64,000 nucleotides of DNA, taken from NCBI RefSeq assembly GCF_006439355.1, contig NZ_VFTG01000003.1:124001-188000 (forward strand), given 5' to 3'. This DNA comes from Mesorhizobium sp. B4-1-3. GTDB taxonomy: Bacteria > Pseudomonadota > Alphaproteobacteria > Rhizobiales > Rhizobiaceae. Under the pieces are notes generated by a model. It was given only the letters and a program-made list of their open reading frames with translations. It was not told where the DNA came from and ran no database searches. Below are positions 11,404-14,938 of the stretch, in pieces (the stretch's first letter is position 1; every line of letters starts with the position of its first letter). Position numbers and translations under genes: made by a program.

Positions 11404-12518
11404 GCCGCGGCTCCTGTCTCGGCGGGCGCTCTCATGCGCTTCTCGATGCGGATGATGACCAGCGCCAGCATGCCGAGCAGCACGGCCGCGGCGAGGAAGA
11501 AGCCGGCCGTATCCAGCATCGACTGCAGGGTGACGCCATAGATGATGGCGAGTTCGAAGGCGAAGCCGGCATAGGCCAGCCAGCGCAGCCCTCTGCTCTC
11601 GCGGCCTGCCAGCATGATCGCCGCGACGATGCCGGCAAGGGTCACGACCGAGGCGACGGCGAAGCCGCTGTTGTAGGTGCTTTCATCCGCCAGTTCGAAC
11701 TGGATGATCGCCATGCCGGTGAGGAAGCCGAGCAAGGCGTGCAAGGGCAGCCGGCCACCCAGCTCAAGGATCCTGTCGACCGGGTCGCCGGCAAAGACCG
11801 AAACAGCAAAGAGCAGCGCCGAGGCGACAGCCAGCGACACCGCCACCGGCAGCGTGTCGTGATCCGTCGCCAACAGAACCAGATAGAGGATGACCGACAG
11901 AATGATAAGGTGGCGCGCGGCCCGGCTGCGCGTCCAGAACGAGATGGCGAACAGGATTATCGCCATGACGATGAAGAGATGCGGAATTTCCGCGCGCCAG
12001 TAGAAGCCGAACCCCTTGAGGGCCAGCCAGGCGTCCGCGATGCCGACCGCCGCCACCGTCAGCGGGTTGGAACGCAGCGCCGCCGCCGCCAGCGCCGTGC
12101 CGGCGCACCAGGCGAGCAGCGCCGAGGCTTCGTCGCCCGAGAGGTGATACATCTGGCCGATCAGTGCGATCGAGCCGCCGAAAGCGGCGGCGGCAACGAT
12201 CCACAGCGCCTCGCCGATCGCGGCATGATCGCGCATCTTCAGCACCGCGCCGCCGACATAGCCGGCAAGGATGACCGCAAACAGCGCCGCCACGCGAACG
12301 AGACGCGGGATGGTCTCCCAATTCGCCGCGACGAAGATCAGGATCGCAGCGCCGAACAGAAGCGCTGCCATCATCGCCAGGATGGAGCCGAAACTCAGCG
12401 ATGCGCGTTCGTTGGCCGCGACGTCACGCGTCAATGCCTCCGCCGTGGCTGGATCGATCAGCCCAGCCTCCCGCCAGCGCGCGATATCCACCCTTACCCG
12501 TGCCGAATAGCTCGCCAT
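11400..12518 (-). CDS. DUF2157 multi-pass membrane protein
   Basis: 372 residues. A soluble N-terminal segment (RWREAGLIDPATAEALTRDV, about 12-31) is the conserved DUF2157 start, and about ten closely packed transmembrane helices follow. The function of the family is unknown. The gene overlaps the downstream GDYXXLXY gene by four bases. The ATG at 12518 is well placed before the conserved helix. Confidence 0.85.
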   Translation of the reverse strand: MASYSARVRVDIARWREAGLIDPATAEALTRDVAANERASLSFGSILAMMAALLFGAAILIFVAANWETIPRLVRVAALFAVILAGYVGGAVLKMRDHAAIGEALWIVAAAAFGGSIALIGQMYHLSGDEASALLAWCAGTALAAAALRSNPLTVAAVGIADAWLALKGFGFYWRAEIPHLFIVMAIILFAISFWTRSRAARHLIILSVILYLVLLATDHDTLPVAVSLAVASALLFAVSVFAGDPVDRILELGGRLPLHALLGFLTGMAIIQFELADESTYNSGFAVASVVTLAGIVAAIMLAGRESRGLRWLAYAGFAFELAIIYGVTLQSMLDTAGFFLAAAVLLGMLALVIIRIEKRMRAPAETGAAA

Positions 12519-12699
12519 GCTTTCCCCCGGAGCCCGGTCATGCCCTTAGCCGGAACAGCCAAACCGTTGACGCAGCGGCAGTTTTCCGATTCGGCCTTCT
12601 TTGTGACGCAGGCGTGAATGGCCGTTAATGTTGCATTGCACAATTTGCATTGCTGCCATGCGCCAACGGCACTTTTAAACCGATACGATCCCACCTATT

Positions 12700-12721
12700 T
12701 TCCGTTCGTACACAAACGGAA
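12700..12721. promoter_or_regulatory. Inverted repeat upstream of DUF1127 genes
   Basis: TTCCGTT and AACGGAA (7-bp perfect arms, 8-base spacer CGTACACA) lie 33 bases before the first DUF1127 start codon. It could be an operator or a 5' UTR hairpin. In Rhodobacter the equivalent transcript is stress-sigma (RpoH) dependent, but I cannot assign -35/-10 elements here with confidence. Confidence 0.4.
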
Positions 12722-12753
12722 TGATCCGAACTAAAGACGAAACGAGAACTACC

Positions 12754-12894
12754 ATGAACCTGATCCGCAACTACCGCAACTGGCGCCGCTACCGGGAGAC
12801 CGTTTCCGAGCTGAGCCGCCTGTCGAACCGTGAACTGACCGATCTTGGCATCAGCCGCAGCGACATCCACTACGTCGCCCGCAAGGCGGTCTAA
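12754..12894 (+). CDS. DUF1127 small Arg-rich protein, copy 1
   Basis: A 46-residue basic protein (MNLIRNYRNWRRYRETVSEL, then SRLSNRELTDLGISRSDIHYVARKAV). The pattern L-S-x-R-x-L-x-D-L-G-I-x-R-x-D-I is the DUF1127 (YjiS-like) signature. Members in alphaproteobacteria are small RNA-associated regulators. In Rhodobacter sphaeroides the gene ccaF1 encodes one and carries sRNAs in its 3' UTR. Here too, anti-SD hairpins follow downstream. A paralogue lies 49 bases on. The start is fixed by the ATG at 12754 after GAACTACC. Confidence 0.88.
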   Translation: MNLIRNYRNWRRYRETVSELSRLSNRELTDLGISRSDIHYVARKAV

Positions 12895-12899
12895 TCCGC

Positions 12900-12921
12900 T
12901 TCGGACCGCAATTGGTCCGAA
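12900..12921 (+). other. Hairpin between the two DUF1127 genes
   Basis: TTCGGACC-GCAATT-GGTCCGAA forms a perfect 8-bp stem with a 6-base loop, six bases after the first DUF1127 stop. No T-run follows, so it is more likely an RNA-processing or stability element within a dicistronic transcript than a terminator. Confidence 0.5.
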
Positions 12922-12943
12922 CCAGTTTTGAAAGAGCAAGACA

Positions 12944-13084
12944 ATGAACCTGATCCGCAGCTATTGTAACTGGCGCGTCTACCGCGACACCGTTGCTGAG
13001 CTGGGTCGGCTTTCGAACCGCCAGCTCCATGATCTCGGCATCGTTCGCGACGAGATCAAGATGGTCGCCCGCAAGGCGATCTAA
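12944..13084 (+). CDS. DUF1127 small Arg-rich protein, copy 2
   Basis: A 46-residue paralogue of the preceding gene with the same start MNLIR and the conserved LSNRQLHDLGIVRDEI core. It ends VARKAI. Length, start and end match copy 1, so this is a tandem duplication with divergence. GAGCAAG lies shortly before the ATG at 12944. Directly downstream is the array of six anti-SD hairpins, so this gene is probably the mRNA from which they are processed. Confidence 0.88.
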   Translation: MNLIRSYCNWRVYRDTVAELGRLSNRQLHDLGIVRDEIKMVARKAI

Positions 13085-13098
13085 GCAAGGAATTTCGC

Positions 13099-13204
13099 CA
13101 GGGTCGACCTCCTCCCCGACCCTGACGGATACGGCCAACCCTTACCTCCTCCCAAGGGTTGACCACCGAAACGGCGCCCGCCGGACCTCCTCCCCCGGCG
13201 GGCG
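13099..13204 (+). ncRNA. CcsR/cuckoo-type sRNA cluster, first triplet of anti-SD hairpins
   Basis: Three hairpins expose the identical 10-base loop ACCTCCTCCC. Hairpin 1 is 13099-13124 (stem CAGGGTCG/CGACCCTG). Hairpin 2 is 13136-13161 (CAACCCTT/AAGGGTTG). Hairpin 3 is 13175-13204 (CGCCCGCCGG/CCGGCGGGCG). All stems are perfect. The loop is complementary to the Shine-Dalgarno motif. This is the defining feature of the CcsR (conserved CCUCCUCCC motif stress-induced RNA) or cuckoo RNA family, which lies downstream of DUF1127 genes in alphaproteobacteria. Hairpin 3 is GC-rich and followed by TTGTT, so it may also terminate transcription. That these are processed from the DUF1127 mRNA is inferred. 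Confidence 0.85.
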
Positions 13205-13281
13205 TTGTTCAGAAGCGAACCTAGGTTGTTCAGAAGCGAACCTAGTTCGTCTTCCAAGGGAACCTAGTTCGTCTTCGAAGG
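13205..13281 (+). repeat. Tandem direct repeats between the hairpin triplets
   Basis: Two overlapping tandem duplications. A 21-base unit containing TTGTTCAGAAGCGAACCTAG occurs at 13204-13224 and 13225-13245. A 22-base unit, GAACCTAGTTCGTCTTC followed by C/GAAGG, occurs at 13238-13259 and 13260-13281. Units share the AGAAGCGAACCTAG/GAACCTAG segment. Two small hairpins follow: TTTCGCC/GGCGAAA (13282-13304) and TCGCC/GGCGA (13312-13328). Confidence 0.75.
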
Positions 13282-13337
13282 TTTCGCCCTTCTCAAAGGC
13301 GAAAAGAATTCTCGCCCTCAAATGGCGAAAGAGATTT

Positions 13338-13457
13338 CGTCAAAGCCGACCTCCTCCCCGGCGATGACGAATACGGTCGATCTTCACCTCCTCCCGAGGA
13401 TCGACCCCCAAAACGACACCCGCCGGACCTCTTCCCCCGGCGGGTGTTGTTGTTTTT
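13338..13457 (+). ncRNA. CcsR/cuckoo-type sRNA cluster, second triplet of anti-SD hairpins
   Basis: Hairpin 4 (13338-13369) has stem CGTCA-AA-GCCG / CGGC-GA-TGACG with loop ACCTCCTCCC. Hairpin 5 (13375-13406) has stem GGTCGATCTTC/GAGGATCGACC with the same loop. Hairpin 6 (13416-13447) has stem ACACCCGCCGG/CCGGCGGGTGT with loop ACCTCTTCCC, one base different. Spacers resemble those of the first triplet (GACGAATACGG versus GACGGATACGG; CCGCCGG stems in both third members). The triplet therefore appears to be a duplication of the first. TGTTGTTTTT follows hairpin 6, a Rho-independent terminator for the whole unit. Confidence 0.85.
13416..13457 (+). terminator. Terminator at the end of the anti-SD RNA array
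   Basis: An 11-bp GC-rich stem (ACACCCGCCGG/CCGGCGGGTGT) is followed immediately by TGTTGTTTTT. It doubles as the sixth anti-SD hairpin. Confidence 0.75.
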
Positions 13458-13528
13458 AGGGCTCGTCGCCCGGCCGGTCATTTGGCCGGCAATTGCAAAC
13501 GCGTCCCCAAGCGATTATTCCGACGCTT

Positions 13529-14938
13529 ATGAGCAAAAATCCCGTACACGTCATCGGCGGCGGCCTCGCCGGCTCCGAAGCCGCATGGCAGATCGCGCAA
13601 GCCGGCGTTCCGGTCGTGCTGCATGAAATGCGCCCTGTGCGCGGCACCGACGCGCATAAGACCGACGGCTTGGCCGAGTTGGTCTGCTCCAACTCCTTCC
13701 GTTCCGACGATGCCGAGAACAACGCCGTCGGCTTGCTGCATGCCGAAATGCGGCTTGCCGGCTCGCTGATCATGAGCGCCGGCGACGCCAACCAGGTGCC
13801 AGCCGGCGGCGCGCTGGCGGTCGACCGCGACGGCTTTTCCGACGCGGTCACCGCAAAGATCGAAGCGCATCCGCTGATCACCATCCAGCGAGAGGAAGTG
13901 GCCGGACTGCCGCCCGAGGAGTGGGACCAGGCGATCATCGCCACCGGCCCGCTGACCGCGCCTTCACTGGCGCAGTCGATCGCGGAAGCCACCGGCGCCG
14001 ATGCGCTTGCCTTTTTCGACGCCATCGCGCCGATCGTGCATTTCGACACGATCGACATGAACACGGCCTGGTTCCAGTCGCGCTACGACAAGGTCGGTCC
14101 CGGCGGCACTGGCAAGGACTACATCAACTGCCCGATGGACAAGGAGCAGTATCTCGCCTTCGTGGCAGCGCTGCTGGAGGGACAGAAAACCGAGTTCAAA
14201 GAGTGGGAAGGCACGCCCTATTTCGACGGCTGCCTACCGATCGAGGTGATGGCCGAGCGCGGCGTCGAGACGCTGCGCTACGGCCCGATGAAGCCGATGG
14301 GCCTGACCAACGCTCACAATCCCTCGGTCAAGGCCTATGCGGTGGTGCAGCTTCGCCAGGACAATGCGCTCGGCACGCTTTACAACATGGTCGGTTTCCA
14401 GACCAAGCTGAAGCATGCCGAGCAGGTGCGCATCTTCCGCACCATTCCGGGTCTCGAAAACGCGGACTTCGCGCGGCTCGGCGGCCTGCACCGAAACACC
14501 TATATCAACTCGCCGACGCTGCTCGATCCTTCGCTGCAGCTGAAGTGGCGCCCCGGCCTGCGCTTTGCCGGCCAGATCACCGGTTGCGAAGGCTATGTCG
14601 AAAGCGCCGCCATCGGCCTGCTTGCCGGCCGCTTCGCCGCCGCAGAACGGCTTGGACAGGCGCCGGCGCTGCCGCCTTCGACCACGGCCTTCGGAGCGCT
14701 GCTCAACCACATCACCGGCGGCCATATTGTCTGCGACGACGAGCCGGGCAAACGCTCCTTCCAGCCGATGAACGTCAATTTCGGCCTGTTCCCGCCCGTG
14801 GAAGCACCCAAGACCGAGGGCAAGCGCCTGCGCGGCAAGGACAAGACCCTCGCCAAACGCCATGCGATCACATCGCGCGCGCTGGCCGATTGCCGGCAAT
14901 GGCTGGGGCTGCCGGCGCGGGCGGAAGCGGCGGAGTAG
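13529..14938 (+). CDS. trmFO: tRNA (uracil-5-)-methyltransferase, folate/FAD-dependent (TrmFO)
   Basis: Methylates U54 in the T-loop of tRNAs using methylenetetrahydrofolate and FAD. The 469 residues start with the FAD-binding motif [18 protein letters not shown] (6-23) and contain the family signatures [18 protein letters not shown] and [19 protein letters not shown] (here [19 protein letters not shown]), with Cys. [13 protein letters not shown] provides another conserved segment. The ATG at 13529 is preferred. A TTG at 13493 would add an implausible leader. The gene starts 72 bases after the anti-SD array terminator. Its stop lies inside a palindrome shared with the convergent neighbour. 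Confidence 0.94.

Follow-up and report, generated by a model that had tools for sequence, protein, structure and literature searches.

A Mesorhizobium operon that joins two DUF1127 genes to tandem alpha-r14 RNAs behind a predicted LsrB/VtlR-type promoter

Introduction

Published systems are cited here from excerpts of the respective papers. In Sinorhizobium meliloti, the small RNA NfeR1 silences SMc03121, SMb20442, and ntrB (ABC-transporter mRNAs and ntrB) redundantly through the same loops; a loop mutant was inactive in reporter assays, and it was left open which chaperone, if any, helps (PMC10746234). The RNA is described as Hfq-independent (PMC10746234, PMC7143759). Its promoter is activated by LsrB, the site of which reads TGCA-N6-GCAT and is located at about −72 to −57 (PMC10746234). 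For VtlR, the box GCAT-N3-TG-N3-T has been proposed (PMC7486931, PMC8844928), and a 15-nt Brucella motif is quoted in PMC12595884. AbcR2 and three DUF1127 proteins are positively regulated by VtlR in Brucella melitensis (PMC12595884), and the neighbourhood of vtlR/lsrB has been described as a LysR gene behind trxB, near an AbcR-type RNA (PMC12595884, PMC8844928). Activation of DUF1127 genes and of small RNAs by VtlR/LsrB has been reported from separate units (PMC10746234, PMC7486931, PMC12595884).

A linkage of DUF1127 genes with cuckoo RNAs fits the CIN1 locus (Reinkensmeier and Giegerich, cited in PMC10253847). RNA binding by DUF1127 proteins is disputed: CcaF1, one of these proteins, binds RNA and takes part in the maturation of CcsR (PMC10253847), whereas no evidence of RNA binding was obtained for YjiS, and the DUF1127 proteins of Agrobacterium act on PhoR (PMC12501420).

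The locus compared with these systems is located in a 64-kb stretch of Mesorhizobium DNA, which was analysed as a whole and is referred to as the window; coordinates are those of the window. An earlier reading of the letters alone (the original prediction) had proposed six anti-Shine–Dalgarno (anti-SD) hairpins after tandem DUF1127 genes.

Results and Discussion

Operon features and hairpin array

Downstream of two 46-aa DUF1127 genes the sequence forms six hairpins, all with the loop ACCTCCTCCC except the last, which has ACCTCTTCCC. The features of the predicted operon are as follows:

12637..12661, plus strand: predicted LsrB/VtlR-type (LysR-family) operator, TGCA-N6-GCAT overlapping GCAT-N3-TG-N3-T
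12672..12700, plus strand: predicted promoter, −35 CTTTTAA (12672–12678) and −10 CTATTT (12695–12700)
near 12707, plus strand: inferred transcription start
12754..12894, plus strand: first DUF1127 small protein, 46 aa (PF06568, 62.4 bits, cut-off 23.3)
12944..13084, plus strand: second DUF1127 small protein, 46 aa (PF06568, 56.7 bits, cut-off 23.3)
13090..13210, plus strand: alpha-r14 copy 1, three anti-SD hairpins (RF02344, 89.4 bits)
13211..13330, plus strand: spacer between the copies, 120 nt; carries direct repeats and also weak hairpins that lack the anti-SD loop; possible site of processing
13331..13452, plus strand: alpha-r14 copy 2, three anti-SD hairpins (RF02344, 87.0 bits)
13412..13457, plus strand: last hairpin and T-tract, predicted intrinsic terminator (15-bp stem, TTTTT at 13453–13457)
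downstream of the T-tract, plus strand: trmFO (own reading; GidA family)

When positions 13085–13465 were folded as RNA, exactly six hairpins were obtained, with all six loops unpaired (MFE −173.5 kcal mol−1, z −8.8; none of 100 shuffles was equally stable), and all six recurred when the presumed transcript of 764 nt was folded to its MFE structure. The 10-nt loops are located at 13107–13116, 13144–13153, and 13185–13194 in the first triplet and at 13349–13358, 13386–13395, and 13427–13436 in the second. The core CCTCCTCCC occurs six times in the 64-kb window, five of these at the DUF1127/hairpin locus (shuffles: mean 0.57, largest 3); it is exact in five of the six hairpins, the third loop of copy 2 carrying one substitution. 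Among the 111 last copies of the genus, the window's own is the only one with this variant last loop (ACCTCTTCCC). Fold, loop counts, and PF06568 matches thus confirmed the hairpins after tandem DUF1127 genes, and the loops had been correctly described as anti-SD. Of the hairpin positions given earlier, the number of six stood and some stems proved slightly longer, the starts being 13170 for hairpin 3, 13336 for hairpin 4, and 13412 for hairpin 6. The loop sequence ACCUCCUCCC resembles the anti-SD tail of 16S rRNA, and it would pair with GGGAGGAGGU.

Copy 1 starts 5 nt past the second DUF1127 stop (13084 to 13090), an interval that has no space for a promoter. The 5′ leader (12701–12753) is strongly conserved (GTACACAAACGGAAT..AAAGACGAAACGAG) and lacks a Shine–Dalgarno core; a short CGGA-ATGA-TCCG hairpin is possible at its beginning.

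Family membership and distribution

Both triplets matched the Rfam model RF02344 (ar14) at model positions 1–123 of 123, with scores of 89.4 and 87.0 bits (gathering score 58.8). They belong to the alpha-r14/cuckoo family, founded by NfeR1 of S. meliloti. The earlier assignment to the cuckoo family was correct, cuckoo being alpha-r14 and both copies scoring above gathering, and so was the proposal of a duplicated three-hairpin unit, each triplet being a full-length match. A categorically new RNA was considered as well and discarded, the family being already in Rfam.

With the covariance model, ar14 matches were obtained in 119 of 119 genus-sample genomes (118 above cut-off), in 146 of 151 family-sample genomes (137 above cut-off), and in 63 of 199 order-sample genomes (29 above cut-off). 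Named records of a near-identical first DUF1127 protein were mostly from Mesorhizobium, with two from Aminobacter and a few lacking a genus name (80 of 419 loci were retained).

Two further alpha-r14 copies are present in the same genome. One (C12:137083–137200) is located downstream of a gene read, without a domain search, as a LacI-type regulator; the other (C24:57119–57234, L041) follows a phasin gene (PF09361, 50.5 bits) by approximately 75 nt and has no convincing LsrB/VtlR box (best 11 of 15 positions of the Brucella motif), so that it may be derived from the 3′ UTR of the phasin mRNA. Not every alpha-r14 copy is linked to DUF1127.

Operon layout and copy number in the genus

Of the 119 genus genomes, 118 contributed a best-match alpha-r14 locus. 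In 112 of these loci two DUF1127 genes stand ahead of the alpha-r14 copies, which bears out the DUF1127 linkage of the original prediction; the remaining 6 were alpha-r14 loci without DUF1127. Downstream, trmFO was present within the stretch examined in 104 of the 112 operon loci. Seven of the 119 genomes (G013, G024, G051, G068, G074, G087, and G088) are outside the 112-genome counts: the best match of the first six was an alpha-r14 copy without DUF1127 (L100, L124–L128), and G088, with its match at a contig edge, was left out. An operon elsewhere in the genome was seen for only G051 of these seven (L136, with a DUF1127 pair, trmFO, and an ar14 match that lacks exact loops).

Copies were located with up to two mismatches allowed per loop and up to three overall, so strongly changed copies are missed. 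The 112 arrays held two copies in 77 cases, three in 33, four in one, and one in one; these are lower bounds, since the array of L016 is interrupted by a stretch of N and N letters also occur in L073 and L089. In the locus counted with a single copy (L117, G006) a second was recognised by the covariance model (66.5 bits). Tandem copies, in the two-triplet form or with a third unit, are thus conserved in Mesorhizobium. The locus had also been described as a large member of the family; an unusual size was not upheld, since alpha-r14 units normally comprise three hairpins and 110 of the 112 loci hold two or three such units. For the same reason the two-triplet form was dropped as a special feature, two or three copies being usual in the genus loci examined.

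Conservation, covariation, and history of the array

An alignment was prepared from 54 of 258 copies, composed of the window's two and a random draw within quotas (22 first, 10 middle, 22 last). Standard pairs accounted for 98.1 % of the pair cells. Changes on both sides were found in 12 of 34 pairs, a number reached by none of 500 shuffles, and the covariation score was 0.274; shuffled alignments gave 0.166, none of 500 reaching the observed score, and slid partners gave no more than 0.092. The weakest of the five covariation measures, further pair types, was reached by 16 of 500 shuffles, and because the aligned sequences are related, all shuffles are only a rough guide. Mean column entropy was 0.079 bits in loops, 0.37 in stems, and 0.775 in linkers. 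None of the 111 first copies showed a change of the core CCTCCTCCC in any of its three loops; among the 111 last copies the core was intact in the first loop of 106, the second of 111, and the third of 99. This conservation is partly built in by the mismatch-limited collection of copies. Loops and stems are hence conserved among relatives, the former as nearly invariant sequence and the latter through covariation, the pattern to be expected if the loop sequence is functional and the stem serves as its scaffold.

First copies had a mean identity of 0.903 to the first copies of other genomes versus 0.795 to the last copy of their own. Among 217 distinct sequences, the nearest relative in another genome was of the same type for 97 of 97 first, 86 of 89 last, and 27 of 30 middle copies. 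As copies resemble same-type copies of other genomes, the duplication appears to be older than the split of the sampled genomes. Hairpin 1 of the middle copies was closer to the last type (0.927 vs. 0.703) and hairpin 3 to the first (0.933 vs. 0.782); judged from these identities, the middle copies of longer arrays look like chimeras of a first and a last copy formed by unequal crossing-over.

The spacers between copies measured −3 to 166 nt (median 57; 146 genus spacers). A CGC..GCGAA motif, which can form a hairpin without an anti-SD loop, was found in 116 of 145 N-free spacers and is a possible processing site. In the window, direct repeats of 21–22 nt (GAAGCGAACCTAG..) occupy 13205–13277 in the spacer between the triplets; the repeat sequence GAACCTAG is rare in the genus (3 of 146 spacers).

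Upstream box and promoter

When the 260 bp upstream were aligned for 112 loci, the block at 12634–12661 was, by eye, the strongest conserved element besides the leader beside the start codon. It contains a 25-nt box, TGCACAATTTGCATTGCTGCCATGC (12637–12661), which was identical in 101 of 112 genus loci and in which TGCA-N6-GCAT and GCAT-N3-TG-N3-T are both exact (12637–12659). The combined overlapping pattern occurred once in the 64-kb window (0.04 expected; present in 4 of 100 shuffles). Taken alone, GCAT-N3-TG-N3-T was found 11 times in the window (7.95 expected) and TGCA-N6-GCAT 3 times (2.82 expected), neither number being significant; because each half is at chance frequency, the operator argument is based on overlap and conservation. 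Of the 15 positions of the Brucella VtlR motif, 12–14 were matched by the genus loci and 12 by the window, at least 12 of 15 also being reached in 23 of 2550 random overlapping 250-bp windows (both strands). The distance from the box to the inferred start (12707) is approximately 57–70 nt.

The −35 element was identical in 111 of 112 loci and the spacer length was constant in all 112. The −10 element was variable (TATTTT in 41, TATTTA in 31, TATCTT in 20, and others in 20), and a generic E. coli-type sigma-70 scan of 12500–13600 found no promoter. A genome-wide search for the box with up to three mismatches gave 433 sites versus 122 for the reversed pattern and is too loose for defining a regulon.

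Boxes similar to that of the operon precede the C12 alpha-r14 copy in the window's genome and in several relatives; in the window's genome the related box reads CACAGCAGCTATGCA and matches 12 of 15 positions of the Brucella motif. An AbcR-type ar15 copy on contig C13 has GCATGCGTGTGTT 62 nt ahead of the start of the model match. Against the Brucella motif, the best value at this C13 locus was 11 of 15, and the ar15 locus on C12 also gave 11 of 15, far from the RNA. On C13, less than 1 kb from the AbcR-type RNA, a LysR gene (PF00126, PF03466) is located directly behind trxB; from this neighbourhood we infer it to be the vtlR/lsrB ortholog.

Outside the genus, a match of at least 12 of 15, no more than 250 nt from the DUF1127 start, was found in 8 of 19 scanned DUF1127-linked loci, several of the eight being close relatives, and in 1.6 % of 1806 overlapping control windows. 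The other four of the 23 linked loci, L191, L193, L194, and L196, were outside that scan and gave best values of 10–11 of 15. The upstream box suggests control of the operon by LsrB/VtlR, and two known outputs of this regulator, DUF1127 proteins and an alpha-r14 RNA, may share one transcript.

Proposed mechanism and targets

The reading that we favour is an LsrB/VtlR-driven DUF1127 mRNA, the 3′-UTR alpha-r14 RNAs of which silence mRNAs at their Shine–Dalgarno sites; we assign it a probability of roughly 0.65. A LysR regulator of the LsrB/VtlR type would activate the promoter, with transcription starting near 12707, and the product would be one mRNA of approximately 750 nt, coding for both DUF1127 micro-proteins and terminated at the T-tract (13453–13457). 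A single transcript is favoured by the 5-nt gap between the second DUF1127 stop and copy 1 and by T-runs that are present behind last copies only. The 3′ UTR of this mRNA would carry two alpha-r14 RNAs of approximately 120 nt; an RNase, probably the RNase E that also acts on CcsR in Rhodobacter, would free them singly or together. Each RNA would then present three redundant ACCUCCUCCC loops for pairing with GGGAGGAGGU-like Shine–Dalgarno sites of target mRNAs, and translation initiation would be blocked, as reported for NfeR1 in S. meliloti.

Perfect GGGAGGAGG-N3–10-ATG sites numbered 8 in the genome, versus 1 for the reversed pattern. By eye, the frames behind them include an ABC-transporter ATPase-like one (L240) and a cytochrome-oxidase-subunit-III-like one, and two or three look like chance. 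With only eight perfect sites, and only some of them before convincing genes, broad targeting must therefore rest on weaker pairing. Another point against the favoured reading is that the excerpted text of a small-RNA survey of M. huakuii 7653R (PMC5596092) gave no match to "r14" or "RF023".

The idea that DUF1127 leaders lack a Shine–Dalgarno sequence in order to escape their own RNA was rejected. GGAG, GAGG, or AGGA was found within 20 nt of either start in 0 of 112 loci, but by a lenient test a Shine–Dalgarno sequence is missing from 24 of the window's 39 long ORFs as well, so the absence is no evidence.

Alternative readings

The same RNA biology could be driven by a stress sigma factor of the RpoH1/RpoH2 type, as for CcsR in Rhodobacter, and not by LsrB; stress sigma factors had also been named in the original prediction, for the CcsR and cuckoo RNAs. 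If the conserved −35/−10 region is taken as CTTTTA-N16-CCTATTT, it shares its register with the RpoH1 consensus of S. meliloti, CTTGAA-N16-CCTATAT (PMC8844928). The register fits RpoD too, however, and gives stress-sigma control no specific support; the −35 is weak and lacks the GA of CTTGAA, and upstream conservation, by eye, is highest in the LysR-type box, which best matches LsrB/VtlR boxes. Activated RpoD promoters also tolerate weak −35 elements, which counts in the same direction, and a stress sigma factor is in our estimate a rather unlikely driver of the operon.

Two other readings concern the hairpins themselves. The array might be mainly protein-directed, binding DUF1127 or another RNA-binding protein for decoy or autoregulation, with mRNA pairing secondary. 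The recurrent neighbourhood speaks for this: besides the DUF1127 pair in 112 of 118 genus loci, a DUF1127 ORF was found on the same strand within the stretch examined (up to approximately 3.1 kb) in 40 of 54 non-genus loci, and no more than 700 nt upstream of the first exact loop in 23 of 54, these loci being the best alpha-r14 matches of their genomes and some of them related. RNA binding by CcaF1 in Rhodobacter, with its part in CcsR maturation, is a precedent (PMC10253847). Against it, NfeR1 works through its anti-SD loops and is inactive as a loop mutant (PMC10746234), no evidence of RNA binding was obtained for YjiS, and the DUF1127 proteins of Agrobacterium act on PhoR (PMC12501420); we consider a mainly protein-directed array doubtful. 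That the hairpins are mere 3′ end structures of the DUF1127 mRNA (terminators or stabilisers) without a role in trans appears highly improbable. GC-rich 3′ hairpins do stabilise mRNAs, and 85 of 111 last copies have at least four T in a row behind hairpin 3, where transcription could terminate. Such runs are absent behind 111 of 111 first and 35 of 35 middle copies, so the first triplet is not terminator-like; of the original suggestion that each triplet could end in a terminator, only the part on the last triplet stood. (A generic terminator scan, limited to loops of 3–8 nt, did not list the hairpin at 13412–13457.) Moreover, stabilisers need no common 9-nt loop core in three hairpins while the stems drift, and solo alpha-r14 copies occur away from DUF1127.

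Other arrangements were seen outside the genus. In L192, L194, and L196, from another family of the order, a unit of DUF1127 plus alpha-r14 hairpins is present three times head to tail, whereas genes and RNAs are grouped separately in Mesorhizobium. In L148, L149, L151, L154, L156, L158, L159, L162, L165, L168, and L170, from the same taxonomic family as Mesorhizobium, alpha-r14 copies, single or in tandem, are located upstream of two other DUF1127 genes within the stretch examined, an order that is the reverse of that of the Mesorhizobium locus.

A bolder extension of the silencing model, which we regard as speculative and probably incorrect in this form, is that the Hfq-independent alpha-r14 RNAs have the two DUF1127 micro-proteins from their shared transcript as dedicated partners, in the role of maturation factor or chaperone, that LsrB/VtlR switches on this RNA and protein module in one step, and that seed number is changed by unequal crossing-over. 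The arrays seen would provide 6, 9, or 12 anti-SD seeds per transcript.

Comparison with known systems

A DUF1127/alpha-r14 operon under LsrB/VtlR was not found described in the literature searched, which consisted of excerpts and had subscription journals mostly outside it. The RNA family is known and so is the kind of locus, but the regulatory layout is new and testable.

NfeR1 (Smr14C2/SmelC397) of S. meliloti resembles each unit of the array in its length of approximately 120 nt and in its three hairpins, each with the loop CCUCCUCCC and with variable stems, and it has an LsrB box upstream of a sigma-70 core (PMC10746234, PMC7143759). It is described as a separate transcript with its own promoter, however, whereas here two tandem copies form the 3′ part of a DUF1127 operon and would share its promoter. 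The CcsR1–4/ccaF1 locus (CIN1) of Rhodobacter sphaeroides likewise combines a DUF1127 gene with several cuckoo-type RNAs in the 3′ UTR and a terminator (PMC10253847, PMC8625941); CcaF1 has 71 aa, in contrast to the two 46-aa proteins here, and the promoter there is of the RpoHI/RpoHII type, in contrast to the LsrB/VtlR-type box. The CcsR-related RNA RS0680a has two stem loops as against three per unit (PMC3927594).

As in the Brucella VtlR regulon and Agrobacterium VtlR/abcR1/atu1667, where VtlR activates DUF1127 genes and small RNAs, a similar box is present here (PMC12595884, PMC7486931), but in those systems AbcR (alpha-r15) is in a unit separate from DUF1127, whereas alpha-r14 belongs here to the same predicted operon. 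AbcR1/AbcR2 (alpha-r15) and SisA–D (alpha-r8, Caulobacter) are also anti-SD small RNAs that repress mRNAs; according to the excerpts they are of other families and structures, and AbcR1/2 bind Hfq, unlike NfeR1 as described.

The RNA is thus of a known kind, and what is informative is the conserved operon design with its likely switch. With DUF1127 genes and alpha-r14 behind one conserved promoter of the predicted LsrB/VtlR type, Mesorhizobium offers a single operon in which it can be asked whether DUF1127 serves the RNAs, and its arrays of two to four copies with apparently chimeric middle copies are a natural series for relating seed number to silencing strength.
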